A DNA stretch of 64,000 nt from Deltaproteobacteria bacterium (GTDB lineage Bacteria; Desulfobacterota; SM23-61). Where the stretch lies: NCBI GenBank assembly GCA_016875165.1, contig VGSF01000008.1, positions 1-64,000 on the forward strand, in the 5' to 3' direction. The position numbers and the translations under genes are program-made. Below the pieces are notes generated by a model that saw only the letters and a list, made by a program, of their open reading frames with translations, made no database searches and was not told the origin of the DNA. Below, one piece after another: positions 729-35,999 of this stretch; position 1 is the stretch's first letter; each line of letters opens with the position of its first letter.

Positions 729-738
729 AATTTTAGCT

Positions 739-1458: not shown

Positions 1459-1574
1459 AATTTTTATTTACTTACAAAACGGGCGTGAGTAAATATTTTT
1501 TAACTTTGCATAAGTTTACATAATACATCTTATCGGGCCTTATTTGGAAATTGATAATTTTGCCGTACCTGAGG

Positions 1575-1734: not shown

Positions 1735-1749
1735 ATTTGGCGCTAAATA

Positions 1750-2934: not shown

Positions 2935-2953
2935 GCCTCCTCCTTTATAGATT

Positions 2954-4006: not shown

Positions 4007-4029
4007 GGCTCTATATTCCCTCATTTTTA

Positions 4030-4296: not shown

Positions 4297-4435
4297 GAAT
4301 TTTTTAATTTTACCTATGCTTATCAGTGGTTACCTGTGTCTTAATTTTTTTTAAAATATTTCTTTATATCTCTGCGATCTCTGTGGTGAATAAATTTTGG
4401 TTGTAGCTCTGCCGTGCTGTGATGAATGAACCACA

Positions 4436-6212: not shown

Positions 6213-6248
6213 CTACTTATCTCAACTAAGGGCGAGGAGGTATTCTGG

Positions 6249-7256
6249 CTATTTCAGGTTCTCCAGGCAGAATTTCAATGCTTCTTCGCCTGGTAAATTT
6301 TTGGCCTTCATGCTGTTTACGTAATCATCGAGAATCGGCCTGGCAGCTCTGGACCATCTTTCGTTTTCTTCTCCGGAAAGAGAAATGATCTGGTTGCCCA
6401 ATTTTAATGTAAATGCCTTCCCGGATTTATCGATTTCATCCCATAATGTTCCAGTCTTCTCGATCCACTCCTGATTGACGCCTTCGATAATCCTCTGGAT
6501 TTCCGCTGGCAGCCCATTCCACTTCTCTTTGTTTATAACCACAAAGAAACCAGTGCTGTAAGAAGCTCCGAAACTCTCGGTGGTAAACTTCACAACTTCC
6601 CCCCATTTCCAGCCTTCCAGTGATTCTATGGGGGCCATTGAACCCTCGACCATTCCCCTCTTCAAAGCGTCATAAGTCTCTCCCATGGGCATGGCTACAG
6701 GAACTCCTCCGAGGGCAGACACCACTTTGGCGCTCAAACCTGTAGACCTAATTCTCGTTCCCTTGAGGTCTTCGAGCTTATGAACAGCTTTTTTCGTGTG
6801 CAAAATCCCCGGCCCGTGAGCATGCAGATAAAGAACCTGGACTTCGTCAAATTCTTTGGGTTTAAAGCGCAGAAAATATTGATTGATCAGCCTGGTGGCG
6901 GATATACCGCTCTTGTACCCCAGAGGCAAATCGATTACTTCGGTCAGAGGAAATTTCCCCCGGGTGTATCCCATAACAGACATGCCTATGTCGGAGATCC
7001 CCTTGACCACGCCGTCATAACACTTATCTGCCGGGGTTAAGGTGCCACCGGGAAATATGGTGATTTTCACCCTGCCGTTGGTCCGTTTCTCAATTTCTTT
7101 CGCCCACTCACCTGCCAGGACCGTATTTTTGTGGGGAGCCGGGAAGAAAATCGAATAAGTAAGCTCGATGGGTTTGGTCTGAGCCCAGGAAGAGGGAATG
7201 AAAAAAAACACCCCCGCCAGAGTGGCGAATAGCATAATTGAGTTCCATCGCTTCAT
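6249..7256 (-). CDS. dctP: TRAP transporter substrate-binding protein DctP
   Basis: A 335-residue periplasmic binding protein. It has an N-terminal signal peptide (hydrophobic stretch MLFATLAGVFFFIPSS, probable cleavage after SWA) followed by the DctP fold: IFFPAPHKNTVLAGEWAKEI, GRVKITIFPGG, LEDLKGTRIRSTG and a conserved arginine expected to bind the ligand carboxylate. The ATG has a good AGGAGG 8 nt upstream. First gene of dctPQM. A second, broken DctP lies at 41829-42248. Substrate unknown; TRAP ligands are nearly always organic acids. Confidence 0.93.
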   Translation of the reverse strand: MKRWNSIMLFATLAGVFFFIPSSWAQTKPIELTYSIFFPAPHKNTVLAGEWAKEIEKRTNGRVKITIFPGGTLTPADKCYDGVVKGISDIGMSVMGYTRGKFPLTEVIDLPLGYKSGISATRLINQYFLRFKPKEFDEVQVLYLHAHGPGILHTKKAVHKLEDLKGTRIRSTGLSAKVVSALGGVPVAMPMGETYDALKRGMVEGSMAPIESLEGWKWGEVVKFTTESFGASYSTGFFVVINKEKWNGLPAEIQRIIEGVNQEWIEKTGTLWDEIDKSGKAFTLKLGNQIISLSGEENERWSRAARPILDDYVNSMKAKNLPGEEALKFCLENLK

Positions 7257-7286
7257 CTCTTTGCCCTCCTTAATTTTTTTTTATTA

Positions 7287-7443
7287 GATGATCTCGTAAA
7301 AAGTCGTCACTCCGGTGAAAACCGGAGTCCAGAAAAATTATAACTATTTAAAAAAACTGATTTCCGGCTGGAGTTTATCCCGATGAAAATCGGGGCCGGA
7401 ATGACATAAAGACGCATTTCCAGACTTTTTACGAATTCATCAT
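7287..7443. repeat. Family A ends with a 'gtcattccgg'-type core
   Basis: Outer ends gatgatctcgtaaaaagtc and gactttttacgaattcatc are family A, but the core is the cactccggtgaaaaccggagtcc / ggccggaatgac type rather than the caatgac type of copies 1 and 2. It lies immediately upstream of dctP (30 nt from its start), so the dctP promoter must be inside or beyond it. Confidence 0.75.
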
Positions 7444-7467
7444 TAAATTAACCACAGAGAAGTATGC

Positions 7468-8766
7468 TTATTTTTTCCGTCGGTCGATTACTTTGGGAGC
7501 CTTTCCTTCTGGTGGCTGCAAACTCTCGGGGGCTACCAGCTTGACTTTGGCGCTAACCCCGATGATTTCCCGGATCTTACGTTCAATCTTTGCTGAAATA
7601 TTCTGTAGAATTTTTATTTCGTCCGAAAAAACTCCTTCGTTGACTTCGACTTTCACTTCCAGGATGTCTACCCCATCAAACCTGTCGGCGATAATCTGGT
7701 AGCGCGGCTCCACCCCCTCTACTTCCAGAAGGATGGCCTCAATCTGGGAGGGAAAAACATTTACTCCTTTGATTATAAGAATATCGTCGCTTCGCCCTAA
7801 CACTTTCTTTATGCGCACCAGGGTTCGGCCGCAGGGGCAAGGGGAATAATCCAGGGAAGTAATGTCCCGGGTCCGGTAACGAACCAGGGGGAAAGCCTCT
7901 TTGCTCAGAGTGGTCAGGACTAATTCTCCTTCTGCTCCGGGGGGGAGCGCCTTGAGTGTCAAAGGGTCGATGATCTCCGGGATAAAATGATCTTCATAGA
8001 GGTGCAGCCCGTTCTTAGCCTCGCACTCCGCAGCCACTCCCGGGCCCATAACTTCGCTTACGCCGTAGTTATCAGTGGCGCTTATGAACAGGCGCTCTTC
8101 GATCTCCTTGCGCATGGGTTCCGGACATGGCTCTCCGCCGAATAGTCCGAGTCTTAAGGATAAGGTTTTGGGGTCGATTCCTTCGGTTCCCATGTAGCGG
8201 GAGAGGAGCAGGGCATAAGAGGGAGTGCTCACCAACGCCGTAGTCTTGTAATCCTGCATGATCAAAACCTGCTTATGGGTGTTGCCGGTGGACATGGGGA
8301 TCACTGAAGCCCCGATAAGCTCCGCTCCATGATGCAGACCAAAAGCTCCGGTGAAAAGGCCATATTTGAAGGTAATCTGGACTACATCGTCTTTGGTTAC
8401 CCCTCCGGCGGTGAGAACTCTGGCCGTCAGCTGACTCCAGTGATGCAGGTCATTTCTGGTATAGCCGGTAACCGTAGGTTTTCCTGTAACTCCCGAGGAA
8501 GAGTGAATGCGCACCACCTCCCGCAAAGGAAGGGCAAACATGCCGTATGGGTAACTCTGGCGCAGGTCTTCCTTAGCAGTGAGAGGAATTTGACTTAGGT
8601 CCTTGATGGACTGGATTTCCTCCGGGAAAATCTTTAACAGATCAAACCGTTTTTTATAGAAGGAAACGTTGCGGAAGATCCGGTTTAAGGTGGATTGCAA
8701 GCGCTCTAACTGGAGCTGCTCCATCTCCTCCCGTTCCATGCATTCATACTTGCGGTCCCAGATCAT
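7468..8766 (-). CDS. paaK: Phenylacetate-CoA ligase family protein (first copy)
   Basis: A 432-residue ANL-superfamily AMP-forming acyl-CoA ligase that activates phenylacetate or a related aryl acid with ATP and CoA in the cytoplasm. Present are the P-loop-like HSSSGVTGKPT, the substrate/AMP region NYGVSEVMGPG, RYRTRDI and the C-terminal hinge [20 protein letters not shown] typical of PaaK. The ORF-track start is 9 residues upstream. The ATG at 8766 forms an ATGA overlap with the livF stop and has a GGGGGAAG element, so it is preferred. Coupling to the Liv transporter suggests the transporter imports an aryl acid or amino acid handled by this enzyme. About 60% similar by eye to the copy at 14990. 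Confidence 0.93.
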   Translation of the reverse strand: MIWDRKYECMEREEMEQLQLERLQSTLNRIFRNVSFYKKRFDLLKIFPEEIQSIKDLSQIPLTAKEDLRQSYPYGMFALPLREVVRIHSSSGVTGKPTVTGYTRNDLHHWSQLTARVLTAGGVTKDDVVQITFKYGLFTGAFGLHHGAELIGASVIPMSTGNTHKQVLIMQDYKTTALVSTPSYALLLSRYMGTEGIDPKTLSLRLGLFGGEPCPEPMRKEIEERLFISATDNYGVSEVMGPGVAAECEAKNGLHLYEDHFIPEIIDPLTLKALPPGAEGELVLTTLSKEAFPLVRYRTRDITSLDYSPCPCGRTLVRIKKVLGRSDDILIIKGVNVFPSQIEAILLEVEGVEPRYQIIADRFDGVDILEVKVEVNEGVFSDEIKILQNISAKIERKIREIIGVSAKVKLVAPESLQPPEGKAPKVIDRRKK

Positions 8767-9518
8767 ATCTTCCCCCCCTTCACTCCCTCCCATACCTCCC
8801 GGTATTCTTTGCCCAGATAAGCCCGTTGCACCTCTTTGTTATTCAACAGATCGTGCGTTTCGCCTTCGAGGATGATCCGGCCAGTCTCGATAACATAACC
8901 CCGGTCGGCAACTTTCAAAGCGGCGTTGGCATTCTGTTCCACCAAAAGGATAGTTGTGGCCCGGTCCCGCAAGGCCTGGATAGTTTTGAAAATGTCGGTC
9001 ACAATCTTGGGCGCCAGGCCCATCGATGGTTCATCCAAAAGAAGAAGTTTGGGCCGGGCCATCAGGGTCCGTCCGATAGCTACCATCTGCTGCTCTCCCC
9101 CGGAGAGAGTTCCGGCGCGTTGTTTCGCCCTTTCTTTCAAGATGGGAAAGAGCTCGAAGATGGAATCCATATCCTGCAGCACATTTTTTTTCCCTGCTCC
9201 TTTGAGCCGGACATAAGCGCCAAGGATAAGATTGTCCATCACGGTAAGCGGAGCAAAAATTTGCCGGCCTTCGGGAACCTGGCCAACTCCCAGGCGCAGA
9301 ATATGTTCGGCCGGTAATCCGGTGATATTCTGACCGCTGAACAATAACCTGCCTTTTGCCGGAGGGTGGATCCCGGATATGATTTTCAACAGGGTCGTCT
9401 TTCCCGCCCCGTTGGCCCCTAAAAGGGTGACGATCTCTCCGGGACTGACGTGGATGGACACATTCCGCAAGGCCTGGATGGCCCCGTAAAAGGCGCTGAT
9501 GCTCTCTACCCTAAGCAT
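8763..9518 (-). CDS. livF: Branched-chain amino-acid-type ABC transporter ATPase LivF
   Basis: An ABC ATPase with Walker A GANGAGKTT, the signature LSGGEQQMVAIGR and Walker B LLLLDEPSMGLAP. Order and the GQVPEGRQIFAPLTV region match LivF. The ORF track begins 36 residues earlier in a non-homologous stretch overlapping livG. The ATG at 9518 starts exactly at the conserved MLRVESISAFYG, carries GAGGAGGCGG upstream and overlaps the livG stop by 8 nt. About 15 residues longer at the C terminus than typical LivF. Supplies energy to LivHM for import of branched-chain amino acids, amides or aryl compounds. Confidence 0.93.
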   Translation of the reverse strand: MLRVESISAFYGAIQALRNVSIHVSPGEIVTLLGANGAGKTTLLKIISGIHPPAKGRLLFSGQNITGLPAEHILRLGVGQVPEGRQIFAPLTVMDNLILGAYVRLKGAGKKNVLQDMDSIFELFPILKERAKQRAGTLSGGEQQMVAIGRTLMARPKLLLLDEPSMGLAPKIVTDIFKTIQALRDRATTILLVEQNANAALKVADRGYVIETGRIILEGETHDLLNNKEVQRAYLGKEYREVWEGVKGGKI

Positions 9519-10287
9519 TACCCGCCTCCTCGCCAAGATAGGCGGCAATGACTTCAGGGGTCCGCTGGACGTCCCGGGGTGAGCCTTCAGCGATCTTTTT
9601 TCCGTAATTGAGGACGAGCACTTCATCCGAAATTTCCATGACCAGGCTCATATCATGTTCCACGAGCATTATTGTAATTCCCCGGTCGCGGATGCGCAGG
9701 ATTGTTTCAGAGAGTTTGACGGTCTCGCGCGTGTTCAAGCCGGCAGCCGGCTCATCGAGTAGAAGAAGCTTGGGCTGGGTGGCCAGGGCGCGGGCAATTT
9801 CCAACAATTTCTGCTCCCCCAGGGGAAGAGCTGAGGCGCTGAGCATCGCTCGATCCTCCAGCCCCATGAAGCGGAGTTCTTGCAAGGCATTTTCCCTAAT
9901 CTCTTTCTCCTCCCTGCGCATCCGGGGAAGACGAAGACCTGCGCTAAAAATACCCGAAGCAGTCTTTCCGTGTCTGCCCAGCATGACATTTTCCAGGACG
10001 GTCATGTTGCCGAATAGCTCTAAATGCTGAAAGGTCCGGGATATTCCTAAACGGGCAATTACATGGGGTTTTAGACCGTTCAATGATCTTCCGGCAAACT
10101 CCAATATTCCACCGGTAGGAGGAATAACCCCCGTAATCATGTTAAAAAGGGTGGTCTTCCCTGCCCCGTTCGGACCGATCACGGATTTCACTTTTCCTTC
10201 GGGCACAATAAAATCCAAAAAATCGATGGCCCGCAAACCGCCGAAAAATTTATGCAACCCCTTTCCTTTGAGCATTCCTCCGTCCAT
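9511..10287 (-). CDS. livG: Branched-chain amino-acid-type ABC transporter ATPase LivG
   Basis: A 258-residue ABC ATPase with Walker A GPNGAGKTT, the signature region LPLGEQKLLEIARALA (LSGGQ degenerated to LPLGE, normal for LivG) and Walker B LLLLDEPAAGLN, plus the LivG C-terminal VLNYGKKIAEGSP. The first ATG has GAGG at suitable spacing, whereas an internal ATG at 10275 has its GGAGGA directly adjacent. It pairs with LivF on the cytoplasmic face of LivHM. Part of livHMGF-paaK, 12 nt after livM. Confidence 0.94.
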   Translation of the reverse strand: MDGGMLKGKGLHKFFGGLRAIDFLDFIVPEGKVKSVIGPNGAGKTTLFNMITGVIPPTGGILEFAGRSLNGLKPHVIARLGISRTFQHLELFGNMTVLENVMLGRHGKTASGIFSAGLRLPRMRREEKEIRENALQELRFMGLEDRAMLSASALPLGEQKLLEIARALATQPKLLLLDEPAAGLNTRETVKLSETILRIRDRGITIMLVEHDMSLVMEISDEVLVLNYGKKIAEGSPRDVQRTPEVIAAYLGEEAGNA

Positions 10288-10299
10288 GGATCCTCGAAT

Positions 10300-11238
10300 C
10301 TACCTTTTTTTGCCAGCGAAGAGGCTGCGCACCCCGTGTAAAACCCCCTGCGGCATGAAGAGGAGGACGACCATCAGAATGGCCCCGTAAGCCAGCACTT
10401 CAAAATCTTCCAGCCCCCTTAGGTATTCCGGCAACAGAGTAAGAATCATGGCTCCCAGGAGGGCGCCCCAAATTGTCTCCGCCCCTCCCACAACCACCAT
10501 CATTAAAAGCAAGATAGAGAACATCAGACTGAACGAGCTGGGGCTGATGAAAGTGACAAAATGAGCATAAAGACTGCCGGCCATCGAAGCGTAAATAGCG
10601 CTTAAGACGAAAACCTGCACCTTATACCAGGAGGCATCCACCCCCATGGCGTTGGCCGCAACTTCACTACCGTGAACGGCCCGCAGGGCCCGCCCCACCC
10701 GGGAGTTGATTAAGTTCAGGGAGAAAAGGAGCAGGCTAATAACAAACCCCCAGACGAGGTAAAGGTATGTTGTCGCTTCCAGGAGGCGTCCGAAGAAAGT
10801 GAGGGTAGGAATGCCCGAGAGCCCGGAAGGCCCGCCGGTTAAAGGAGAAAGTTCGTTGAAGAAGATAAACAGGATCTCCCCAAAACCCAGGGTAGCCACG
10901 GCCATATAGTGGCCTTTGAGTCTGAGGGTGGGTTTACCGACCAGGAAAGCAATGACGGCTGAGAGGAAAATGCCGGCAAAAAAGGCCAAAATGGGATCGA
11001 AGGAATATTTCGTGGTCAGGATTCCGGAGGAATAGGCGCCGATCCCAAAGAATCCGGCATGTCCTAATGAAATCTGCCCGGCATAACCCATGAGCAGACT
11101 CAGCCCCATGGTGGCGATACTGTTGATGCCCATAAATACAAGGATGCTGATGAAGTATTGGTTGCCGCCGACGAGCCAGGGGAAAACGCCGATGGCCATG
11201 ACGATCATCAGAAGGGGATAAAAATCTTTTCTGCTCAT
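10300..11238 (-). CDS. livM: Branched-chain amino-acid-type ABC transporter permease LivM
   Basis: A 312-residue inner-membrane permease of the BPD_transp_2 family with about eight to nine hydrophobic segments. The conserved GLSLLMGYAGQISLGHAGFFGIGAY region and GALLGAMILTLLPEYL near the end are typical of LivM. Together with LivH it forms the translocation pore. It starts 10 nt after livH with AAGG upstream. Confidence 0.94.
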   Translation of the reverse strand: MSRKDFYPLLMIVMAIGVFPWLVGGNQYFISILVFMGINSIATMGLSLLMGYAGQISLGHAGFFGIGAYSSGILTTKYSFDPILAFFAGIFLSAVIAFLVGKPTLRLKGHYMAVATLGFGEILFIFFNELSPLTGGPSGLSGIPTLTFFGRLLEATTYLYLVWGFVISLLLFSLNLINSRVGRALRAVHGSEVAANAMGVDASWYKVQVFVLSAIYASMAGSLYAHFVTFISPSSFSLMFSILLLMMVVVGGAETIWGALLGAMILTLLPEYLRGLEDFEVLAYGAILMVVLLFMPQGVLHGVRSLFAGKKR

Positions 11239-11248
11239 CTTAACCTTA

Positions 11249-12142
11249 TCAGTATTTCTTCAATTGGCTCTCTTCGGCGCTTCCCAGGATGCCGCTCGGC
11301 TTCAACCATAGAATCACCAGAAGGACCAGGAGGGCGATGGCATCCTTGTATCCGGATGAAATTAGACCAGCGCCCATGGATTCCAGGATGCCAATAATAA
11401 AACCGGCAATGACAGCTCCGACCCCATTCCCCAGGCCTCCAAGAACTGCCGCCGCAAATCCTTTTATGGCCAGGAGGGGACCCCGGTCGTATTCCATAAG
11501 GGTTATGGGTGTGATAATGGCTCCGGCAACTGCTCCGATAGCTGCGCTCAAACCGAAAGAAAGCAGGACCATTTTACGCACATTTATGCCCACGAGCCTG
11601 GCAGCCACCGGGTTGAAAGAACAGGCAGTCATGGCTTTTCCGGTCAGGGTGCGGTTAAAAAAAATGCCAATCCCGAATACGGCAAGGGCGGTAATCCCCA
11701 GAATCCAGAATATTTGTGGTTGGAGGGTGGCTCCCAGGAGCTTAACAGATTGACCGCCGCTGAAGGTGGGTAAACCATAGGGATCTTTGCCCCATATGAA
11801 CATGGCTATACCCCGGAATAGAATGGAGCCGGCCAGAGTAATCATAATCAGGGTGATCAGTGAACCATTTTTTAATGGATTTATGGCCAAACGTTCGAAA
11901 ATGGCGCCCAGGGCCATGACCACAGCCACGGTTAGCAGAAAGGCAATCAGCAATGGGATTTTTAAGGTGGCCGTTAAGAAAACCATAATCAGGCCTCCCA
12001 GCATGACAAATTCTCCCTGGGCCAGGTTGATGATTCCGGTGGCTCTGTAGATCATCGTAAACCCCAGGGCAACAAGGGCATAGATGCTCCCGAGGGTTAG
12101 ACCGGAAAAAAGAAATTGGATAAGTTGACTGGACAAACGCAT
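11249..12142 (-). CDS. livH: Branched-chain amino-acid-type ABC transporter permease LivH
   Basis: A 297-residue permease with the LivH hallmarks LGSIYALVALGFTMIYRATGIINLAQGEF at the N terminus and FAAAVLGGLGNGVGAVIAGFIIGILE toward the C terminus, with about eight membrane helices. It is separated from livK by 416 nt holding a repeat and a strong hairpin with a T-run ending just before this start. Expression relative to livK is probably set there. The Shine-Dalgarno is weak. Confidence 0.94.
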   Translation of the reverse strand: MRLSSQLIQFLFSGLTLGSIYALVALGFTMIYRATGIINLAQGEFVMLGGLIMVFLTATLKIPLLIAFLLTVAVVMALGAIFERLAINPLKNGSLITLIMITLAGSILFRGIAMFIWGKDPYGLPTFSGGQSVKLLGATLQPQIFWILGITALAVFGIGIFFNRTLTGKAMTACSFNPVAARLVGINVRKMVLLSFGLSAAIGAVAGAIITPITLMEYDRGPLLAIKGFAAAVLGGLGNGVGAVIAGFIIGILESMGAGLISSGYKDAIALLVLLVILWLKPSGILGSAEESQLKKY

Positions 12143-24242: not shown

Positions 24243-25514
24243 ATGAACAAGAAAAATAAGGCTGTAAAGAAAAAAATGGATCCGCTTTTCCCCCAGGCTG
24301 AAACCCTCCTTCAAGAAACAGAAGACAACGCCGAATTATGGATAAAAGATGCCGATCCGCTGTTGCAAAAGCTTCGGTCTCTTTCTTCTAATCAGCAAGA
24401 AATTTTTTTTCTCTCCTTTATTAAGAAAAATAACGAGCAGCTTCCCCTGCTGCTGGAAGCGCTTTGCGGTAAAGAAGAAGGACTTGATCTCGCTTTGGCC
24501 GCCAGCCTGGGACAATGGAGATCTCCGCACGCGGCTGATATTCTTAAGCGGATGGCTGCGGCAAACCCTTCCAAGGCCCTGTTCAAAACGATCCGTAAAT
24601 CCATTTTTCGCCTGCAGAGCATGGGCATATCTGTTAAGGAGATTAGCGACCGGTCTCAAGCGGTCTTTCACCCTACGCGGCTTGCCCCCTCAGAAGGATT
24701 TTTAAGCCCGATCGACCCTTTCGGAAATAGATTCATTATGCTGTTCAAGCCCCAAATTCCCCAGGGGGTCGCTTTATTTAACACCCTGATCAGCGATATG
24801 GACGGGATTATTGATTTTAACGCGATAGAAACATCTCGCAAGAATGCCGATGAATACCTGAGCGCATTTCAACAGGAATATTCTTTTAAGCTCGTAGAAG
24901 CTGGCCCGGATTATTGTCTTCGCTTGATTGCCGAGTCTTACGAGCTCGGGCAAAAAATAGGGAAGACTCCTCCGGCTGATTTTTTAAAATTGCGCCCTTT
25001 GATGGGTTCATCTCCTCCATTCCCACTTAGGCCCTTTATTTATAAGCATTTAATAGAAGAAGAGATAAAATCGCGCCCGGACCTTTTGGATCAATCGGTT
25101 TCCCTTTTCCAGACGCCCTTTTTTGAGGACTGGTTTCTCAAGAAGGAGGAGTGTCAAAAATACCTCGACCATTTTAAGGAGGCTAATGCCTCCAGATTAG
25201 TTCTTACCCCTTATCAGAAGGAGGGCCGGCTTTTGGACATATACCGCCAGGCAGTTCATGAGATCTTCGACGAATCGAAACGGATGATTTACCGGCGCAG
25301 GCTGGAGGAGATGGCTTATTATCTCTGGAAAGCAGGGCAGGAAAATGAAGCGCGGATGAGCCTGGCCGCTGCATTGGCGTTGCGCGAAGAAAGCAGGCTT
25401 CTCTCTCCTAATCCTTTTCTTCTCGAACTCGTAAAAAGAAGCTTAAACGATCTGATGAAGGAAGAAGAGGAGGAGAAAAAAAGGAAAGAAGAGGAATTGA
25501 TTATCAAACCGTAA
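24243..25514 (+). CDS. Conserved-looking helical protein of unknown function
   Basis: A 423-residue soluble protein with no signal peptide. It starts with a basic tail (MNKKNKAVKKK) and ends with an acidic/basic coiled segment (KEEEEEKKRKEEE). The N-terminal 120 residues look like HEAT-type alpha repeats (PLLLEALCGKEEGLDLALAASLG, SPHAADILKRMAAANPSKALFKTIRKSI). A central part with PIDPFGNRFIMLFKPQ and a C-terminal helical part (YRRRLEEMAYYLWKAGQENEARMSLAAALAL) follow. I do not recognise a family. The start has GAGGG 5 nt upstream. A family A repeat begins directly at the stop codon. Confidence 0.7.
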   Translation: MNKKNKAVKKKMDPLFPQAETLLQETEDNAELWIKDADPLLQKLRSLSSNQQEIFFLSFIKKNNEQLPLLLEALCGKEEGLDLALAASLGQWRSPHAADILKRMAAANPSKALFKTIRKSIFRLQSMGISVKEISDRSQAVFHPTRLAPSEGFLSPIDPFGNRFIMLFKPQIPQGVALFNTLISDMDGIIDFNAIETSRKNADEYLSAFQQEYSFKLVEAGPDYCLRLIAESYELGQKIGKTPPADFLKLRPLMGSSPPFPLRPFIYKHLIEEEIKSRPDLLDQSVSLFQTPFFEDWFLKKEECQKYLDHFKEANASRLVLTPYQKEGRLLDIYRQAVHEIFDESKRMIYRRRLEEMAYYLWKAGQENEARMSLAAALALREESRLLSPNPFLLELVKRSLNDLMKEEEEEKKRKEEELIIKP

Positions 25515-26151: not shown

Positions 26152-29100
26152 TCAGACAAATGCTTCGCTACAGACGATACGGGGAATAGACCTGTCCTCG
26201 AATTCCAGGCTTCGCCGGGACGTCACGTCTTTCAGATTGTGCTGGTCGTAGATTCGGATCAGATTTTTGTAGAGTGCCTCGCCAGCGATGGCATTCCGCC
26301 GCAAATGGTTCAACTCGCGCTTGACCGCTCCGGTCAAAGCGCCTCTGAAAGCCTTTTCCAGAATGTTAACGTTAGCCTTGATCTCTTCTTCTATCGTGGC
26401 TTCAAAAAGGATCCTGAGTTCACGAAGAGCATAGAGTTGACCGTGCGTTAGATTGAAGGTATGCTTGCGCTCGGCTTCCCGGTGTTTGACTTCCTCGGCA
26501 AATGTCCGTTGAACGGCCATGACCGCCTTGTTGTACCCGTCCGGCAGGTCGGCGGCCTTTGCATCGGGAGCGCATTTGACTGTACCGACAACCCTCGGAA
26601 CATCGCGGGAAACAACAGCGCCTTTATCATCGAGCAGGAAGAGCTGCTGAAAGCGGCCAGCCTGGCAGAAAACAAAAAAGCCTTTTTGCAGAGAAGGTCG
26701 CGCCGTTCGGATGCCATCGCGCAGAGTGGCAATACGTTCAAACTCCGCAGGGTCTTCTTTCCGCAACTGTCGTAAAATTTCTTCGGCTTCGTTCAGGTCC
26801 AGAAATTCGTCTTCCGGTTTACCCCAGAGCTCCAACTGCACCGGGCCGCCTCCCTGTGTTTCGTAAATGGCATACATCGCCTCGGGGTTCAGCCGTTCGG
26901 TCTCGTCAAGGATGTTGGAGTCTTCCCCAATGGTGTCGTGAATCTCTTGAATCCGGTTGTGCAACTTATCGTACAGCTTCAGATTCTTCTCGATTCCCAC
27001 TTCCGGCAAGAAGTTAAAAGCAAAGATAACCTCATGTTCCGATCCGATACGGTCTATGCGCCCGAAGCGTTGAATCAGCCGCACCGGGTTCCAGTGCAGA
27101 TCGTAATTGATGATGTTGTCGCAGTCCTGGAGGTTAAGACCTTCGGCCAGAACGTCGGTGGCGACGACGGTCATGAGCTCCGCTTCGCCTTTGGCAAAGC
27201 GATACTCCGGGTTGGCTTTCGGTGCGAACCGTCCGACCACGCGCGCTTTGCTCTTGTCCCCGCTGTAGATGACCTCCATGTCGGGGAAGCGGTCGCCGGG
27301 GTTCAGATTGGCATAGAGATACTTCGCCGTGTCGGCGTACTGCGTGAAGATCAACCGTTTCGTACCCTTCAAAGGCTTGTCGGTTAGGCGCGTTTTGAGC
27401 GTTTGGAGTTTGGCGTCTTTTTCGGGGGTGATGGGTGCAACCAGTTTCTGGACGGTCTTCAAAAGCTCGATGTCGTGCGCGATGTGTTGGCGCAGGGTAT
27501 CCGTGTCGAAGTCTTTTGCATCGTAGCGTTGCGATACCGCACGCAAGGCGTCCATGAAGTCGGCCTCTTCGAGCGTATCGCTTCCATAGAGGATGTACTG
27601 CGCTTCCTCGCCCGCCGGGATAAAACCCTCGTCAATGGATTTGAGAAATGATTCGTGAATATTGAGCAACCGGCGGATGGTCTCCTGAAAGGCGTAAACA
27701 CTCGACTCAAACCGCTTGAACAAGAGAACCCGCATCAGGCCGCGCAGATTGGCCCCGGCCCGGTGCAGGCTGATGTACGGTTCTTTCTTCTGTTTATCAG
27801 CGTGTACGTAGTGCCACAGGCCATAGCGCGCGTAGGTCAGTTCCCCTGCCGTAGCTTTGGCCGGTTTGCCCTTCCGGGACTTGCCAAGAAAGCCGCGCAA
27901 CTGCTGGTAAAGTCCCTGGTAGGTGTCTTCGATGCTGTAGGCAATGGTTTGAAGGTTCCGCTGCAAGAAGAACTGGTGCTTCCCGCCAACGAGCACATAG
28001 GCTTTCCGTTTACCGTCCAAGTATTCCTGAAAACGGCAGGGGTCAACCGGCTCGTGCGTCTCCGCGTCGAAACCATACCAACGCAAGATATGGTTGCGCG
28101 TGCGCCGGATAAGGATATTGGCCAGCAAGTCGGGCAGTTTCTTTTCCCCGCGCTCAATCAGTTTGAAGAACTCTTTCAAATTCGGCGGATCAATGGGCAG
28201 GTCCGTCCGGTCGTCCTGATGGAAAAGCTTGATCTGGTGATAAACGTCCCACGCGCTTTTGTTTCGGGGCGTGGCGGTCAGGAAACAGCAACGGCGGCCG
28301 GTTGAAAGGAAAGTTTGAACTACCTTATAGCGCTGGGTGTCGGGATGCCTAAAGTTGTGGCTTTCGTCCACCAGTACAAAATCACGGTCTTTGTAGTGGA
28401 AATCCTTCAGAAGCTTGGTCACGCCGTCGTTATCGTCTTCCCGGAGGTACCCCATGGAAAGGACTCGGGCGTTGAGTTGGTAAACCTCATTGTACCGTTC
28501 CCACATTTCCTTGAGCGGGGCGGGACAAATGACCACGGGGCGTGAGTGGTCCGTACGCTCAAAATGCTTCACGATGGCCGCGCCGATGTAGCTCTTGCCA
28601 AGGCCGACTACGTCCGCAACAAACCCGCCGCCGAAATCCCGGATCATCTGAATCGACTGCCGGACGGCGACCTTTTGGAAATTCGCCAGTTTGCGGAATA
28701 TCTCGTCATCCCAAAGGAGTTCTTGTTCTTCCTCGCCCTCCAGCCGATCTTTTACGAGGGCAAAGAGCGTCTTCATGTAGATGTCGTACGGTCTCACCCG
28801 CGCCGCCGCCCAGGATTCCTTGAGTTCCACCATCAGCGTTTCGTCGAATTCCTGTGCTTCCTTCCAAAGATCATCGAACCAGCGAACAAGCTCCTGGTGG
28901 TTCTGGTTCCCCTGAACGATCACATTCAACTCGGTGTTGTGAGTCAACCCAGCCAGGGTCAAGTTGGAAGATCCCACAACCGCAATACCCTTTTCGTGGC
29001 GTTCAATCTCTTTGCCAACCAGATCAAACACTTTACCGTAATCGCAAATGTATGCTTTCGCGTGGAGTCGTCCTTTCGTATAAACGCGGACCTTCAGGCG

Positions 29101-29496
29101 CTTGTCCTGGATCATCTGAATCAGTCCGGCAATCAACGCTTCCGCTTCGTCCGTCTGGTCCATCAACTCGACTGAGTTCCGCAGATTCCCGGCTGTCTCC
29201 TGGGCCATCTTCCCGGCCTCCGTGCGCTTGGGGTAAGCCTGTCGCTCGACCTCTTCCGCCGCGAGATCAAGGCGGCGATAGCCTTCCGCCAGCATTTCAA
29301 CCGTCTCGCGGTTGGTCGTGTTTCCAATGAGGAGCCGGAGTTCTTTAAGGTTCAAGAGACGTTTGGCGACACTCGTTAACCCGGATAGGAAAAGGTAGCC
29401 AACGGCAAACCGTGCCCGTTCGCTGGATCCGAGCATCTGGCCGAGGTGGTCAACCAGTTTCTCTGTTCGATTGTCGATGATGTCATGGGCGGGCAT
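26152..29496 (-). CDS. PLD-nuclease/SNF2-type helicase fusion protein
   Basis: A 1114-residue defence-type protein. The N terminus (about 1-225) is a phospholipase D-like domain with one HKD motif, HAKAYICD (145-152), and the following GSSNLT (176-180). A superfamily 2 SNF2/RapA-like motor follows: motif I ADVVGLGKSY (about 294-303), DESH in place of DEAH (377-380), TATP (407-410), and the C-terminal lobe ATDVLAEGLNLQDCDNIINYDLHWNPVRLIQRFGRIDRIG with motifs V/VI. A 250-residue helical tail closes it. Related PLD-helicases occur beside Eco57I-type methylases in restriction or DISARM-like systems. It starts 3 nt after the MNT gene and ends the operon. DNA translocation and cleavage are inferred. 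Confidence 0.88.
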   Translation of the reverse strand: MPAHDIIDNRTEKLVDHLGQMLGSSERARFAVGYLFLSGLTSVAKRLLNLKELRLLIGNTTNRETVEMLAEGYRRLDLAAEEVERQAYPKRTEAGKMAQETAGNLRNSVELMDQTDEAEALIAGLIQMIQDKRLKVRVYTKGRLHAKAYICDYGKVFDLVGKEIERHEKGIAVVGSSNLTLAGLTHNTELNVIVQGNQNHQELVRWFDDLWKEAQEFDETLMVELKESWAAARVRPYDIYMKTLFALVKDRLEGEEEQELLWDDEIFRKLANFQKVAVRQSIQMIRDFGGGFVADVVGLGKSYIGAAIVKHFERTDHSRPVVICPAPLKEMWERYNEVYQLNARVLSMGYLREDDNDGVTKLLKDFHYKDRDFVLVDESHNFRHPDTQRYKVVQTFLSTGRRCCFLTATPRNKSAWDVYHQIKLFHQDDRTDLPIDPPNLKEFFKLIERGEKKLPDLLANILIRRTRNHILRWYGFDAETHEPVDPCRFQEYLDGKRKAYVLVGGKHQFFLQRNLQTIAYSIEDTYQGLYQQLRGFLGKSRKGKPAKATAGELTYARYGLWHYVHADKQKKEPYISLHRAGANLRGLMRVLLFKRFESSVYAFQETIRRLLNIHESFLKSIDEGFIPAGEEAQYILYGSDTLEEADFMDALRAVSQRYDAKDFDTDTLRQHIAHDIELLKTVQKLVAPITPEKDAKLQTLKTRLTDKPLKGTKRLIFTQYADTAKYLYANLNPGDRFPDMEVIYSGDKSKARVVGRFAPKANPEYRFAKGEAELMTVVATDVLAEGLNLQDCDNIINYDLHWNPVRLIQRFGRIDRIGSEHEVIFAFNFLPEVGIEKNLKLYDKLHNRIQEIHDTIGEDSNILDETERLNPEAMYAIYETQGGGPVQLELWGKPEDEFLDLNEAEEILRQLRKEDPAEFERIATLRDGIRTARPSLQKGFFVFCQAGRFQQLFLLDDKGAVVSRDVPRVVGTVKCAPDAKAADLPDGYNKAVMAVQRTFAEEVKHREAERKHTFNLTHGQLYALRELRILFEATIEEEIKANVNILEKAFRGALTGAVKRELNHLRRNAIAGEALYKNLIRIYDQHNLKDVTSRRSLEFEDRSIPRIVCSEAFV

Positions 29497-29499
29497 GGG

Positions 29500-29835
29500 T
29501 TATGCGTCTTCTGTAATGGTGATCGGCTGTCCCTCACGCCGGGCGATCTCAATGATTGCGCTGGATTCATCCTCGCGCCATTGCCGCTCTCCACAGGGGA
29601 TCGGTTCGATGCGATTATCCGTCCTCGCCGCAACACGCCAAAGAAGGTCAATATCTGCGCGATCCCGCATGTCATCGAACCGGGGAGAAACAACCAATAA
29701 ATCGATATCGCTCCATGAACCCGGTATACCTCTGACCTGTGATCCGAAAACCACCCCGAAGTTGATGATCAGTCCCTGATCCTGCAAGGCCCGGAGGTAG
29801 TCTCTGACGCCTTTCACAACAGATTTGTCAACCAC
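29500..29835 (-). CDS. MNT-type nucleotidyltransferase domain protein
   Basis: A 111-residue minimal nucleotidyltransferase. The signature GSQVRGIPGSWSDIDLLVV (GSx9DxD) is intact near residues 31-49, with a third acidic candidate in RIEPIP. The GTG start at 29835 has GGAGG 7 nt upstream and overlaps the HEPN gene by 22 nt. In HEPN/MNT (type VII) toxin-antitoxin pairs MNT acts as antitoxin by nucleotidylating the HEPN toxin. Here the pair is embedded between the methylase remnant and the helicase, all in one direction, so it may be a regulator or an abortive arm of the defence operon. Confidence 0.85.
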   Translation of the reverse strand: MVDKSVVKGVRDYLRALQDQGLIINFGVVFGSQVRGIPGSWSDIDLLVVSPRFDDMRDRADIDLLWRVAARTDNRIEPIPCGERQWREDESSAIIEIARREGQPITITEDA

Positions 29836-30194
29836 CGGAACACCTCCTCTGCCCGTTTCATATACCGGGCTGCTTCCTCGCTCGTTGGCGGCTTCGTCAA
29901 CATTTCGGGGTAGCGTCCTTCAATATGGAATGCATTCATTTCAGCCAGTATGTCAGTCTGCACCAAACTCGAAACAACACCCGCCAAATCAATCAGGCGA
30001 TTCAGATTGTGGATGCGAGGCGCCAAATCACCCGTATTTTTGCAAACAAGTGCCTTGAGCATCTTTTCCAGGGCCAGATGAGCGAAAAACAAACCGTGGC
30101 GGGTTCGACCGCTTTCAAGAAGCTGCTGAGCTACCGCCCAATCTTCTTCGGCGTTTTCCTTCCAACAGGAGATCTGTTTTTTGATATCAACCAT
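29814..30194 (-). CDS. HEPN-domain protein
   Basis: A 126-residue helical protein. NAEEDWAVAQQLLESGRTRHGLFFAHLALEKMLKALV (residues about 12-48) and PRIHNLNRLIDLAGV are the HEPN core, and the FHIEGRYPEM segment is typical of PF05168. The ATG at 30194 has GGGGA 9 nt upstream; the ORF-track start is an upstream TTG. A canonical Rx4-6H RNase motif is not visible, so toxic RNase activity is uncertain. It overlaps the MNT gene by 22 nt, as in HEPN/MNT pairs. Confidence 0.85.
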   Translation of the reverse strand: MVDIKKQISCWKENAEEDWAVAQQLLESGRTRHGLFFAHLALEKMLKALVCKNTGDLAPRIHNLNRLIDLAGVVSSLVQTDILAEMNAFHIEGRYPEMLTKPPTSEEAARYMKRAEEVFRWLTNLL

Positions 30195-30369
30195 AATTAT
30201 TTTCCCCAAACAGAATTATGGAATCTTAGGTTAATAAATTCAACATATTTCTAAGAAGTTGCGCAACCGCATCCCCCATTAACCCGTACAGTTGCAACAC
30301 GGCTCTTTCCCATCCAAACCTGCCGCTTGCCCATCGCCATATCCTCCTGCCGGCTTGCCCGGCAGGAGA

Positions 30370-31314
30370 TTACGACCGCCTGCCAATGCGCCGAATGACG
30401 TCCAAATCATACTCACTGAACGTTCCCACGTAAAACCTATCCTGCCACACCCGGCACCCCGCGGCCCTCGCCAGCCCATTCTGAAACGTCAATGCAATCT
30501 CTTCCGGCGACCGCGCGATATTCCCGCGCAACGCCATATGGACATGGTCCGGCATCACCGACAAGGCTGCGATCCGGTGGCCGCCCTCCGCCGCCACGTC
30601 CAAAGCCGCGTCGCACATCCGTCCGAGCTGCTCGCGGGCGCTAATCCTGAACCGATCCGCCGTCACTAACACGAGATGGAGGTCGTACCAATACCGCCCG
30701 CTGTTAGATTCCGACGGTTCAGCCAGCCGCACATCGTCGGCGACAACCGTGAAGCTGCGCATGGTCTCTCGAAAACGCGGGTCGGCGAAGTCCCCTTTCC
30801 CGATCTGGCCGCGAATATACCTCTGGACCACGTCGGAGGTGTTCTCGCCGAGACTGCGGAAGGATACTTTGCGGCTGAAATCCACCGGCGTGCCGTGCTT
30901 GCGCAGCGCGTGCTGCAGGCGCCCTTTTACGCGCATGCAGAAGAACGTCGGGCTCACCTGCGGGGTGACGCTGAAAAGAATCTGCACCTTTTCAGCCGTG
31001 GCGTGGGGTTGAAGCAGGCTCAGGCCGTCTTTTTCCCACAAGGACGCGGTTTCGCGCGCAACGGCGGCGCTCTGCGGGGGCAACGTCGCGCCGGCGGTCG
31101 GCCAGCCGGTCCAGTCGTAGTGGAGCAGGAAAGCCGGTTTGAGGTTGTGGCCGGTGTATAGGGCTTGCGGCGACCTTGTGCCGCCAGGGCCGAATTTTTG
31201 TGTCCGGCGACGCAAGATCGCCGGGACGCCGGTCTCATTCGTTCCCGGTGATCTCGTCGGCTGGGCGTTGGCCTCATGGGCTCCTGGTGATCTCGTCGTC
31301 GGGGCGCTAGTCAC
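30370..31314 (-). CDS. REP-associated tyrosine transposase (RAYT, Y1/IS200-like)
   Basis: A 314-residue ORF, of which about residues 52-314 look like protein. It has a central VKGRLQHALRKHG/VQRYIRGQ region, SGRYWYDLHLVLVTADR, the metal-binding HUH motif in MPDHVHMAL (HVH 257-259) and YVGTFSEYDLD with the candidate catalytic tyrosine. RAYTs are single-strand transposases that act on REP hairpins. The first 50 residues (repeated TRSPG) are translated REP sequence, so the true start is probably near 31165, though no strong ATG is visible. The formal GTG start forms a GTGA overlap with the methylase stop. It sits at the point where the methylase is cut off. Confidence 0.8.
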   Translation of the reverse strand: MTSAPTTRSPGAHEANAQPTRSPGTNETGVPAILRRRTQKFGPGGTRSPQALYTGHNLKPAFLLHYDWTGWPTAGATLPPQSAAVARETASLWEKDGLSLLQPHATAEKVQILFSVTPQVSPTFFCMRVKGRLQHALRKHGTPVDFSRKVSFRSLGENTSDVVQRYIRGQIGKGDFADPRFRETMRSFTVVADDVRLAEPSESNSGRYWYDLHLVLVTADRFRISAREQLGRMCDAALDVAAEGGHRIAALSVMPDHVHMALRGNIARSPEEIALTFQNGLARAAGCRVWQDRFYVGTFSEYDLDVIRRIGRRS

Positions 31315-31390
31315 CTCCGCTCCCGGTGACCATGCGTCACCGGGGCCGAAATTTCGCTTCCGGTGACCCGAGGTCGCCGGGAAGCATCAA
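31150..31390. repeat. REP hairpin cluster at the RAYT 5' side
   Basis: At least four short GC-rich hairpins lie in tandem. One is cccggtgac-catgc-gtcaccggg (9-bp perfect stem). Others are ttccggtgac-ccgag-gtcgccgggaa, gtccggcgac-gcaa-gatcgccgggac and ggcgac-cttgt-gccgcc. Degenerate gttcccggtgatctcgtcg units lie between. They are unlike the A-D families elsewhere in the window and belong with the adjacent RAYT. Confidence 0.72.
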
Positions 31391-32795
31391 AACCTTTCAG
31401 AGCCGTGCCCAAAAATGCCACCAACGCTTCGTCCACCATGTACTCCACGATCTCGCGCGGGGTGTAGAACGAGCCGGTCTGTTTTCTGGCGGTGGCGCCG
31501 GTTTCAGGATTATAGGCGGCAAGCAGGTTTTCGAACACCTTGCCGGAAAGCTCCGGATCGAGGGCGACTTCCTGCTCGAAGGGCGTGTTTTCCTCAATCG
31601 TGAAATGGTACTGTTGGAGAGTATGGATCAGCCCGCGCACCCGGACCTTTCTGAACTTCCTGTCGCCATAATCCGCGCTGAGGTCTTCTTCGCGCTCAGG
31701 TCCAAAGAACAGGAAATCCGGCACAACCGGCTGGCTGTCCGGCCGTCGGGAGAATCCGTCAATGCGCACATAACGGGGCCTGGCGTTTTCGCCCAGATCC
31801 TTATCCAGGCACTCGAACAGGCCGCCATTGAGGAATGGGATGTTCTTGAACAGCGCCAGCGCATCGCCGGGCTTCTTAAAAAAATCGCGATGGCGGTAAA
31901 GACTGTGCGCCATAAAGTTCTGCTCGTCCCGCGCCCAGCCGCGCTTGTCCATTTCCGTGTTCAACGTGGCGAAGAACAGATTCTGCAGGATCGCCTTGTA
32001 GAAGACGGAGTCCTTCCCGGCATCCTTGTCTGTCGCGAACCCATCGAGCAGTCCAGCCAGGCGTCGCTCATCAAACAGCACCTCCGGAATCAGGCCTTTT
32101 TCCTTCACGAACCAGCAAAAAATCAACCGCGTGATCATGCGGATCACGCCGATATGGTCGTGCCCGTCAGCCTCCTTGGGTGCGTCCTTGGGGAAACGAA
32201 CATGCTTCAGCGCCCAGAAATACCAGTTGGCGAGCTCCTTGTAGAACGCTTTGGTGACCGACTCGACATCAAAGGCGTCATCGTGGCGTTTTTGAATCTC
32301 CAGCGCGGGGATGCCGAACAGGTCTTTCCCCATCAACGCGAGATCCATCATCTGCAGCCGCTCGGCGGCCGTGCGCAAACCGCTGTCGGCTCGCACGGTA
32401 ATCCGGCGGAAAAGTCGCCGCTTCTCTGCCTTCTCGTCATACTTGATGTTCAGAAAATGCCAGGCGGATTGCGCCTTGTCGGAAAAAACGAACAGGCAGT
32501 AAGGATGTTCGCGGATCAACTGGTTGACGATGGGCCGCTCAAGGTTCCTCTGAAGGCTGGCGGAGGCCAGGCGGCAATACACCATATGAAACGCACTATC
32601 CTCGCCGCCGCTCGCGAACAGGATGGGATCATCGACCAGCGCCTTGCGGGCGGAATCCGGCCAGCCGCGCATGCTGAGCGGCTTGTTTTCGCGCTCGTAG
32701 TTCAGTTCCTCCCAGAAAAGCTTTTTAAGGCCGCCCAGATCCCGCAAGTTCCGAAGGATATTCAGAACCATCTGTTGTCTTTCAATCTGGCCCAT
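31311..32795 (-). pseudogene. Eco57I-like restriction-modification methylase, 3'-truncated
   Basis: 494 codons remain of a protein family usually over 1000 residues. The N-terminal specificity/helical region (RRLFRRITVRADSGL, HIGVIRMITRLIFCWFVKEKGLIPE, IPFLNGGLFECLDKD) runs into GSFYTPREIVEYMVDEAL (about 441-458), the segment just before the S-adenosylmethionine site of Eco57I-type N6-adenine methylases. The catalytic DPxxGSG and NPPY motifs should follow but are absent here and anywhere else in the window. The last 25 residues (ASRRPRVTGSEISAPVTHGHRERR) are translated REP hairpins. The methylase is therefore probably inactive. First gene of the defence operon. Confidence 0.82.
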
Positions 32796-33381: not shown

Positions 33382-35079
33382 TCAGAAGTCCATCTCGGCA
33401 ATTTTTTTTAGGCCCAGGCGCATGGGGATGATCACGGCCGCGCCCATCAATACAGCCACACCCGTAAAAGAGAGGGCGATGCCAGCCCAATCCGATAGCG
33501 CAAGGTCCCGCTGATGAAATGCGGCCATGAATATCGTATAGACCGGCCAGGCTTCCAAAACGACTACCGCCCCTATAAAAATCATACTTAAAATCATGTA
33601 AAAAATCCCCCCGAATCCTGAGACTATTTGCGCGGCGTTTTCCACCCGGAAGCGGGGATAAATCGCCCCCAGCCCCACTCCCAGGCCGACTATCCCAAAG
33701 GTCATAAAGAAGATGGTCACCGCAGAAAGGACCATCATGAAGGGGGTGACCTGGAGAAAACGGTTAGACAGATAAATCAAAACTTCGGCAAAAATTAGCA
33801 GAGGGACGAGGTTTGACCAGAATTTACTCCAGAGAAAGCTTTGCATGGATACCGGCGAAGCGCGGATGATCCAGAAGGAATATCCTTCCTGGCTCACGGC
33901 CGGAAAGACGAATCGGCCAGCTATTGCCGATAAGACAAACCCGGCCAGGCCCATGTTGAGGAAAGAGATCAAGTTTGTAAGAAAAAAAGTGGGCATGGGG
34001 GATTTATCCAGGGGAAGGACGCTAAAGTTGTAAAGGTAAACCACTACCAGGGCTGTGAGCAGGATAAGTTGAGACCACTGGGTAGTATCCCGGAAAAAAC
34101 TCTTAAAGTCCTTAATCGTAAGAGCTCTTATCCGGGAATTCAACGGGCGGCTCATACTGCGCAAGACTCGATTGATCAGGGGCTTTTGGGTGAAACGGGT
34201 TTTGCGGGCTTCCTGGGATTTGCTCCATCCACTGAAAAACAGGGCCCGGGAAGCCCAGTTTCCCAAAACAACTGTTGCCCCGGCTGTGGACCAGAGCAGT
34301 CCTAAATAAAATATGCTGTCAGCTCGTTCTCCTAAATAATAAGGGAGCAGCGCCTCGGAGACCCAGAAACTGGGGAGGAGGGGCCAGGATGGGGTGTTCA
34401 GGGCAGTGAAATATTCTACCAGGTGAGCGAAGGAATCGGGGTTGACCAAACGTTCCGGCTGCAAGAACCGCAAAAGAAAATACAGAGCAATGACTAAAAA
34501 AATGGAAAGAAGGAAGAGGACTTCTTTGGTCCGGCGAGCCGGGAAATTATTCACTAAGGCCACGGATAACAATGTCCCTAAGGCTGCCGGAATGATTAAA
34601 AAGGGAATGAAAGCGCCGATGAAAACCAGGTAGTAATCGAGGGAAGAACTATACACCCAGGCATAGGCAAAAAATACCGGCAGCCCGAAAAGAATTACCA
34701 TCCAGGAGCTGTGGAACATGGTTTCCGTCAGTCGAGCATAATAGAGACTATCAAGGGAGACCGGGCGAGAAAGGACCAGGTTTAAATCCTCAGCAAGGAA
34801 AAAAGTGGAAAGGGAAGAGATTACGTTGCTGAAGAGCAGGACGGAAAAAAAGGTGAGAAGGGTCATGGACATGAGTCTTGCGGCCAGAAGGTCTCCGAAA
34901 AGCTCCACGCTACGAAAATAAACCAGAACCCGCTGAAAAACAAAAAACGTCAAGAACCAGAACCCAAGGGCCAGGCCGGCCAGGATCAATGGTTTCAGGA
35001 GGGAACGTTTGTCGGGGCGGCGCAGGCGGTTTTGCAGGGCGGTGATTTTGGGCTGAAGCAGGGTCATCCATGCTTTCAT
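33382..35079 (-). CDS. ABC-2-type exporter permease
   Basis: A 565-residue membrane protein with about 12-14 hydrophobic segments and no ABC cassette. Segments such as FFLAEDLNLVLSRPVSLDSLYYARLTETMFHSSWMVILFG and QEGYSFWIIRASPVSMQSFLWSKFWSNLVPLLIFAEVLIY are characteristic of large bacterial ABC exporter permeases paired with a single ATPase. It lies 160 nt downstream of the ATPase gene on the same strand, separated by an AT-rich gap with an aattcctttt motif and an E-type arm. Substrate unknown. Confidence 0.88.
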   Translation of the reverse strand: MKAWMTLLQPKITALQNRLRRPDKRSLLKPLILAGLALGFWFLTFFVFQRVLVYFRSVELFGDLLAARLMSMTLLTFFSVLLFSNVISSLSTFFLAEDLNLVLSRPVSLDSLYYARLTETMFHSSWMVILFGLPVFFAYAWVYSSSLDYYLVFIGAFIPFLIIPAALGTLLSVALVNNFPARRTKEVLFLLSIFLVIALYFLLRFLQPERLVNPDSFAHLVEYFTALNTPSWPLLPSFWVSEALLPYYLGERADSIFYLGLLWSTAGATVVLGNWASRALFFSGWSKSQEARKTRFTQKPLINRVLRSMSRPLNSRIRALTIKDFKSFFRDTTQWSQLILLTALVVVYLYNFSVLPLDKSPMPTFFLTNLISFLNMGLAGFVLSAIAGRFVFPAVSQEGYSFWIIRASPVSMQSFLWSKFWSNLVPLLIFAEVLIYLSNRFLQVTPFMMVLSAVTIFFMTFGIVGLGVGLGAIYPRFRVENAAQIVSGFGGIFYMILSMIFIGAVVVLEAWPVYTIFMAAFHQRDLALSDWAGIALSFTGVAVLMGAAVIIPMRLGLKKIAEMDF

Positions 35080-35240
35080 CGGAATTCTCGTCTATCGTGA
35101 TTGTATAGGAAATTCCTTTTTGGCGCCTTTTAGCATCATCATTAATTTTAGGCTCTTAACGCGTATTCTTTATTTATCCTTAATTAGCGTTTTTGAAACT
35201 CGGTGATCTCTGTGCCCTTTGTGGCTAATTTAGCGATTCA

Positions 35241-35999
35241 TTAACGCCCGGCTTCCGGAAATTCGCGCACTCCCCCATCCTCTGTCAATTTGAGAAAGAG
35301 GGACTCCAGCCGTTCATCGGTTGTTCTTGCTTGTTTCCGCAGCTCCGGCATGGTGCCGAGGGCAATCACTCGGCCTTCGTTTATGATTCCTATGCGCTGG
35401 CACACCTCTTCGGCCAGTTCCAGGGTATGTGTGGACATAAAAATCGCTGCCCCTGATTTGGCCAGATCTTTAAATAGGTTCTTCACCAGTTTAGCGCCTT
35501 TCGGGTCCAACCCCACCATCGGCTCATCGACGATGAGAACTTTGGGACGGTGCAGTAAAGCAGCGGCAATGACCAACCGCTGGCGCATTCCATGGGAATA
35601 GCTTTCAATCAATTCCTGGCTCCAGGATAGGAGGTCATAAAAATTCAAAAGCTCGTCAATCCGTCTCTCTCTTTTATCGCCGGAATCGAGAGCATGCAGG
35701 TCAGCAATGAACTCCAGAAACTCCCGGCCGGTTAGTTTCTCGTATAGATACGGCTTGTCCGGGATGAATCCTAAAATGGACTTCGCTTCCTCTGGCTGCC
35801 GGAAGACATCTTTCCCGTCAAGGAGCACCTGCCCGGAAGTCGGTTTCATCAAGCCAGCCATCATGCGGATGGTGGTGGTCTTGCCCGCGCCGTTCGGACC
35901 TAAAAATCCAAAGACTTCCCCGGGCGGAATATGCAACGTTACGTCCCGGACTGCCGGGAACTTCCCAAAGCTCTTGCAAAGCCGAAAAAGTTCTATCAC
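35241..35999 (-). CDS. ABC exporter ATP-binding protein (CcmA/NatA type)
   Basis: A 252-residue ATPase with Walker A GPNGAGKTT (residues 34-42), the signature ESYSHGMRQRLVIAAALL (LSGGQ altered to YSHGM), Walker B VLIVDEPMVGLDP and the H-loop STHTLE. It drives the permease encoded downstream. It overlaps the transglutaminase gene by 4 nt (ATGA), so these three genes form one unit. The exported compound is not predictable. Confidence 0.93.
   Translation of the reverse strand: MIELFRLCKSFGKFPAVRDVTLHIPPGEVFGFLGPNGAGKTTTIRMMAGLMKPTSGQVLLDGKDVFRQPEEAKSILGFIPDKPYLYEKLTGREFLEFIADLHALDSGDKRERRIDELLNFYDLLSWSQELIESYSHGMRQRLVIAAALLHRPKVLIVDEPMVGLDPKGAKLVKNLFKDLAKSGAAIFMSTHTLELAEEVCQRIGIINEGRVIALGTMPELRKQARTTDERLESLFLKLTEDGGVREFPEAGR

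Follow-up and report, generated by a model that had tools for sequence, protein, structure and literature searches.

Gene organization of the locus

We analysed a 64,000-nt window of contig VGSF01000008.1 (assembly GCA_016875165.1, a deltaproteobacterium). On its minus strand lie, in order, a methylase stump, a transposase gene, a HEPN gene, a minimal nucleotidyltransferase (MNT) gene and a helicase gene. The truncated methylase ORF (31311-32795, 494 aa) begins with 462 codons (31410..32795) shared with the relatives L005-L009, which run to just past motif X (GSFYTP). It closes with a 32-residue tail and a stop codon (31311..31409) that are encoded by REP sequence, with hairpins CCGGTGACGCATGGTCACCGGGAGCG and similar. 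A cluster of REP palindromes and 39-nt repeats (31163..31385; repeat families D1 and D2, inverted repeats) lies upstream of the transposase gene (30370..31314, 314 aa), the product of which is a RAYT-like Y1/HUH transposase with an HVH motif. At the 3' end of this gene is a palindrome, CTCCTGCCGG..CCGGCAGGAG (30344..30368), and a homologous region follows the transposase gene of G053, a second genome described below. The adjacent HEPN (29814..30194; Pfam HEPN, 73 bits) and MNT (29500..29835; Pfam NTP_transf_2) genes are predicted to encode a toxin-type and an antitoxin-type protein. They are 91% and 94% identical, respectively, in the relative L008, where HEPN likewise lies just upstream of the helicase. 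The PLD-SNF2 helicase/nuclease gene (26152..29496; PLDc_2, SNF2-rel_dom and Helicase_C) is intact, as originally predicted: its 1114 aa are uninterrupted, and HKD, Walker A, DESH and QRFGRIDR are all present.

The transposase start codon overlaps the methylase stop (GTGA), the HEPN and MNT genes overlap, and only 3 bases separate MNT from the helicase; hence the genes still resemble a single operon. A sigma-70-like site with an extended -10 precedes the methylase and a weaker one precedes HEPN, both as consensus matches only. A terminator scan of the locus gave a signal no better than that of shuffled sequences. The transposase scores above the cut-off for Pfam Y1_Tnp (54.5 bits) and below it for NCBIfam REP_Tyr_transpos (19.6; cut-off, 80) and IS200 (50.6; cut-off, 55). 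REP palindromes flank it as hairpins, and the single-strand fold of their cluster has a z of -2.7. We found no further RAYT or REP copies in the window genome, and the block is therefore single-copy.

The break in the methylase gene

Across residues 1-462, the stump is 86-90% identical to the L005-L009 proteins, and beyond that there is no identity. The final 32 residues are common to no relative and are REP-derived, as the original prediction held. DNA homology to the relatives stops at 31410 (residue 462), the remaining 99 bases being REP palindromes, and L008 matches again from about 30243, just before HEPN. In L008, these two ends lie 7 kb apart and enclose the rest of the methylase, a 619-aa protein, TcmP, an SPL-like radical SAM protein and a RelBE-like pair (a label read from sequence). 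By this comparison, the window lacks the C-terminal 700 residues of the methylase and any ancestral cargo.

Since the homologous part of the stump ends shortly past GSFYTP (FYTPREIVEYMVDEALVAFL), motif X is retained. Motifs I and IV and the TaqI_C-like recognition domain (residues 1026-1115 of L008, within the lost half) are gone. A six-frame scan found no MTase motif I, and NPPY-like strings occurred only in stop-broken frames or outside the methylase locus, in keeping with the reported absence of DPxxGSG and NPPY. The window ORF stops after motif X and is not a complete N6-adenine methylase (motifs X, I and IV and recognition domain), and the stump cannot methylate. The gene had been described as cut just before its catalytic motifs. 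This is correct for motifs I and IV, but motif X is kept and the recognition domain is lost too. We confirm that the catalytic half of the methylase was lost at the REP/RAYT element and that the helicase is intact. In the AlphaFold model of L008 (pLDDT 83, pTM 0.79), the break falls at the end of helix 447-463, before loop 464-470.

Might homologues naturally end here? The relatives are single ORFs of 1134-1227 aa with DPAxGSG and NPPY, and they run on past the window break as one ORF with DPAVGSGAFP and NPPY. Motif I lies downstream of motif X in the same ORF in 58 of 59 distinct relatives' ORFs with motif X, after a linker of 53-101 residues in 53 of the 58 and of 292-401 residues in 5. The only exception, L016, is a frameshifted copy. 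These counts rule out a natural end at the break. A protein search of the window's own assembly did not find the missing C-terminal half: the best matches (43-51% identity; contigs C130, C127 and C11) belong to other systems, which rules out a split gene with its catalytic half elsewhere.

The full methylase matches the Eco57I, N6_Mtase and TaqI_C models, and the L008 model matches structures of CamA, M.BseCI, PglX/BrxX and MmeI. The system is an N6-adenine methylase (PglX/MmeI/CamA-like, Type IIG-like) together with a PLD-SNF2 helicase, the gene for which lies in the same operon in the window. The methylase adjoins the helicase in relatives with enough flank. The order is methylase-cargo-helicase in the close clade and helicase-methylase in more distant relatives. 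In L006-L014, the slot between the two genes holds exchangeable defence genes: Shedu (L006), an Avs3a-like protein (L007), TcmP with HEPN/MNT (L008), RT-UG21 (L009), an AAA ATPase with Schlafen-AlbA_2 (L010) and HEAT-CxxC-PDDEXK (L012); L013 has little cargo. Besides this locus, the window genome has three others that pair a methylase with a PLD-SNF2 helicase, with an identity of about 30% (contigs C124, C127 and C130). In L048 (7566-17054), the methylase lies within a 3163-aa open frame that may be a large fusion.

In G053, a genome from another family of the same phylum, this system, more decayed than in the window, also contains the REP-RAYT block. Its locus, which spans two contigs overlapping by 44 nt, retains methylase residues 1-229, the REPs and, directly before the helicase, a RAYT that has lost its N terminus; the helicase itself lacks its middle part. 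The two RAYTs share 87% nucleotide identity over 438 bases. Because its methylase breaks elsewhere, G053 supports the presence of the block at this locus, not the exact junction seen in the window.

RAYT domains in the same loop of related methylases

In seven Verrucomicrobia methylases of this family, a RAYT occupies the same loop, the site corresponding in the L008 model to loop 464-470 between helices 447-463 and 471-482. Six are in frame and one is split just after the insert. In L015 (1387 aa; 696-4859) and L021 (1506 aa; 7374-11894), the Y1/RAYT domain follows in frame directly after MVDEALxAxL; the other in-frame cases are L105 (1502 aa), L106 (1663 aa), L107 (1610 aa) and L108 (1638 aa). 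In L109/L143, a first ORF (791 aa) stops just before motif I and a second (803 aa) holds the rest. The insert flanks look REP-derived (TGIPAC, GQTFLSA and TGMSA), and a full-length helicase lies near L107 (1139 aa), L106 (1130 aa) and L143 (1121 aa). Six of the seven came from a search of L015's phylum, in which 49 of 388 genomes had methylase relatives; among those 49, the RAYT was in frame at the loop in 5, L015's included, and the gene was split just after the RAYT in G775. L021 is the seventh. In the L143 region (5329-10212), a frameshift or stop interrupts the gene after the RAYT and just before motif I, possibly an intermediate to the window's state.

In a maximum-likelihood tree of 64 RAYT domains, the seven methylase RAYTs fall in at least three places, implying at least three changes on well-supported branches. 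The window RAYT is only about 25-30% similar to them over 40-70 residues and belongs to a different subfamily. Together, these observations rule out a single shared origin. The loop RAYTs of Verrucomicrobia thus have at least three origins. Because its RAYT is of another subfamily, the window would add one more independent case at this site, provided that the RAYT entered there. The loop looks like a natural landing site.

Origin of the truncated locus

With a probability of roughly 0.78, we consider the locus to be what remains, after a recent break, of a two-gene defence system resembling restriction-modification, produced by a REP/RAYT insertion into the loop and a later deletion. A REP/RAYT-like element would have entered the inter-helix loop that separates motif X from motif I, the arrangement found in the related methylases. 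A deletion downstream of the element would then have removed the catalytic core, the TaqI_C-like domain and any genes up to just before HEPN/MNT, an extent suggested by the relatives; we infer this order of events for the window. With recognition and methylation lost together, the helicase-nuclease would most likely not be directed to sites in the host genome, and the cell would tolerate the loss. The helicase would still be intact because too little time has passed for it to decay. It is most likely part of an anti-virus system disabled not long ago and, judging from its architecture, presumably inert without the methylase.

Alternatively, the RAYT may have been a cargo gene between methylase and helicase, with a deletion running from the methylase loop to the REPs and the match to the landing site a coincidence. 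G053 counts against loop insertion in this respect: its RAYT adjoins the helicase and its methylase breaks at residue 229 instead, so the RAYT could be a cargo-slot neighbour with the methylase eaten back by deletion. However, the window breakpoint lies within a few residues of the loop in which the seven other RAYTs sit, and we estimate that a random breakpoint in about 1,160 residues would match it with roughly a 2% chance. We regard the cargo route as doubtful, though it is the strongest of the alternatives.

If loop insertion and deletion did create the remnant, when did this happen? We counted lineage-specific substitutions, leaving out the mis-framed L062 rows. In the stump, the window branch carries 37 synonymous and 16 nonsynonymous changes (L005 branch, 41 and 11); in the helicase, it carries 68 and 13 (L005 branch, 57 and 15). 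Neither gene shows a clear sign of relaxed selection on the window branch. Hence, either the break is recent relative to the window-L005 split (dS 0.48) or the products are still constrained. From these sequence counts, the truncation is probably recent, which is simpler than continued constraint. The original prediction had offered continued selection or a very recent event; the latter fits the counts better, although the two are not fully separable. Between the window and G053, the RAYT dS is 0.35 and the methylase dS is 0.62, so a RAYT was probably at the locus well before the window methylase was lost. This points to an earlier stage with a RAYT present and a working methylase, the RAYT being either in frame or a cargo gene.

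We doubt that the helicase-nuclease instead works without the methylase and is kept by selection, as a modification-dependent enzyme (Type IV-like; compare SauUSI) or as a damage sensor with HEPN/MNT. The helicase, HEPN and MNT ORFs are all intact, helicase dN/dS is low (0.06-0.09) and the promoter-like site before HEPN sits in sequence conserved with L008. A recent break predicts the same constraint, however; G053, which also lacks the methylase, has a gutted helicase, and the relatives with enough flank keep a methylase beside theirs. We judge a self-sufficient helicase improbable.

Loss of the methylase had been expected to be lethal unless the nuclease was inactive, silenced or differently triggered. 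We do not find this paradox compelling. In Type I systems, loss of M or S abolishes restriction. Here the catalytic and recognition domains were removed together, and therefore the loss need not be lethal; a helicase-nuclease without a recognition domain presumably cannot be directed to sites, which would make the truncation tolerable. Either gene also decays independently among the relatives: L005 has lost the methylase end and the helicase start, the L016 methylase is frameshifted, L026 is broken in both genes and G053 is gutted. Some of these could be assembly faults, but as a group they make a lethal dependency unlikely.

An assembly misjoin at the REP repeats of a genome with an intact methylase is very unlikely: the assembly is of metagenome type (234 contigs, 7% contamination), but it holds no second REP/RAYT block and no stray methylase C-terminal half, the single-copy RAYT and REPs leave a misjoin without an obvious repeat substrate, and a similar REP-RAYT arrangement occurs in the independent genome G053. 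On the evidence available, neither assembly error nor naturally ending homologues hold, and the break is real.

Whole RAYT domains in frame in other proteins

We searched 388 genomes from the phylum to which L021's genome belongs; of the 95 RAYT matches listed, 49 fall within ORFs of 430 aa or more. We assembled a set of 45 embedded RAYTs from 40 of those 49 and five from G100; many of the surveyed genomes are probably metagenome-assembled. The HUH histidines are invariant across the 45 ORFs and the tyrosine nearly so. Pfam identified the hosts as HSDR_N proteins (type I R subunits; 5), MmeI-type methylases (4), Eco57I (3), Leu/Val-tRNA synthetases (5), PriA (4), radical SAM/B12 proteins (4-5) and MgsA (2). 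In-frame RAYTs occur in LeuRS of L204, L210, L226 and L233, PriA of L201, L202, L207 and L219, HsdR of L133, L134 and L229, and MmeI of L212. Eight hosts were checked singly; among them, LeuRS, PriA, MmeI and HsdR have their own domains both before and after the insert. A few of the 45 ORFs end with the RAYT, which may reflect simple read-through. With flanks read by eye, the LeuRS, PriA and PglX-like inserts apparently recur at the same place in different genomes. Most other Y1 transposases in these genomes are encoded by stand-alone ORFs of 130-430 aa. All G100 matches lie in restriction-modification genes, which suggested defence-specific targeting; the LeuRS, ValRS, PriA, radical SAM and MgsA hosts rule this out.

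We propose tentatively, at somewhat under even odds, that RAYT/HUH transposases are intein-like mobile elements embedded in proteins. They would insert into loops between the domains of conserved enzymes (restriction methylases, HsdR, MmeI, LeuRS and PriA) in frame with stop-free REPs and be tolerated there, with catalytic residues conserved and the same sites recurring. The window would then be a failed case in which the host gene lost its other half.

Taken alone, the window locus is an ordinary decayed defence system; the point of interest is the landing-site pattern. In Verrucomicrobia, one methylase loop has taken up transposases on at least three occasions, and the same seems to have happened in the unrelated lineage of the window; essential and defence enzymes, too, contain entire RAYT domains in frame. 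Expression of the fusions, if it occurs, would open testable questions about RAYT spread, host activity and the silencing or loss of restriction genes. In addition, the relatives provide a record of a two-gene system with exchangeable defence genes as cargo.

Comparison with known systems

In a literature search that left most subscription journals outside its reach, we found no named two-gene MTase/PLD-SNF2 system and no report of whole RAYTs in frame. Type IIG/IIL enzymes (MmeI, Eco57I class), BREX PglX/BrxX and CamA resemble our methylase in the N-terminal region, motif X, motif I, NPPY and TaqI-like recognition domain. It differs in having no N-terminal PD-(D/E)XK motif recognizable by eye and in its PLD-SNF2 helicase partner, and its scores against PglX models lie far below cut-off. 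Class 1 DISARM (DrmD, DrmMI and DrmC) also combines a SNF2 helicase, a PLD protein and an adenine methylase, and our helicase matches DrmD models. In our system, however, PLD and SNF2 form one protein, and the DrmD score is 136 against a cut-off of 610. The NCBIfam DrmD and phospholipD_antiphage models, like those for DrmC, fall below cut-off (the first two well below it for the helicase), and the best PADLOC model is C3a139 'HKD+Snf2' (261 bits), with DrmD, BrxH and others weaker. No DrmA or DrmB occurs in the scanned inter-gene slots or among the window neighbours, and the neighbours at 24243-25514 and 33382-35999 have no Drm match; the Class 1 gene set is absent here. Hma (helicase, methylase, ATPase; PMC8565338) is likewise a helicase plus methylase operon, but HmaB is an m5C methylase and ours is an N6-adenine methylase.

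As for the embedded RAYTs, the literature describes short intragenic REPs, and the verrucomicrobium O. terrae is among the organisms that have them. Intragenic REPs and Rickettsia palindromic elements (PMC3733652) are similar in being palindromes in frame within genes, many of them DNA repair genes. Theirs are short (20-82 residues), whereas ours span an entire transposase domain, about 190 residues long, in which the HUH and tyrosine are conserved. A large TnpA-Y1 survey excluded 'unexpectedly long' proteins, taking them for fusions or errors of annotation (PMC6006769), and hence the in-frame pattern may have been filtered from view. Inteins and homing elements share with the embedded RAYTs residence at the same sites in conserved proteins that act on nucleic acids; the RAYT inserts, in contrast, have no visible splicing domain and appear to stay in the protein.
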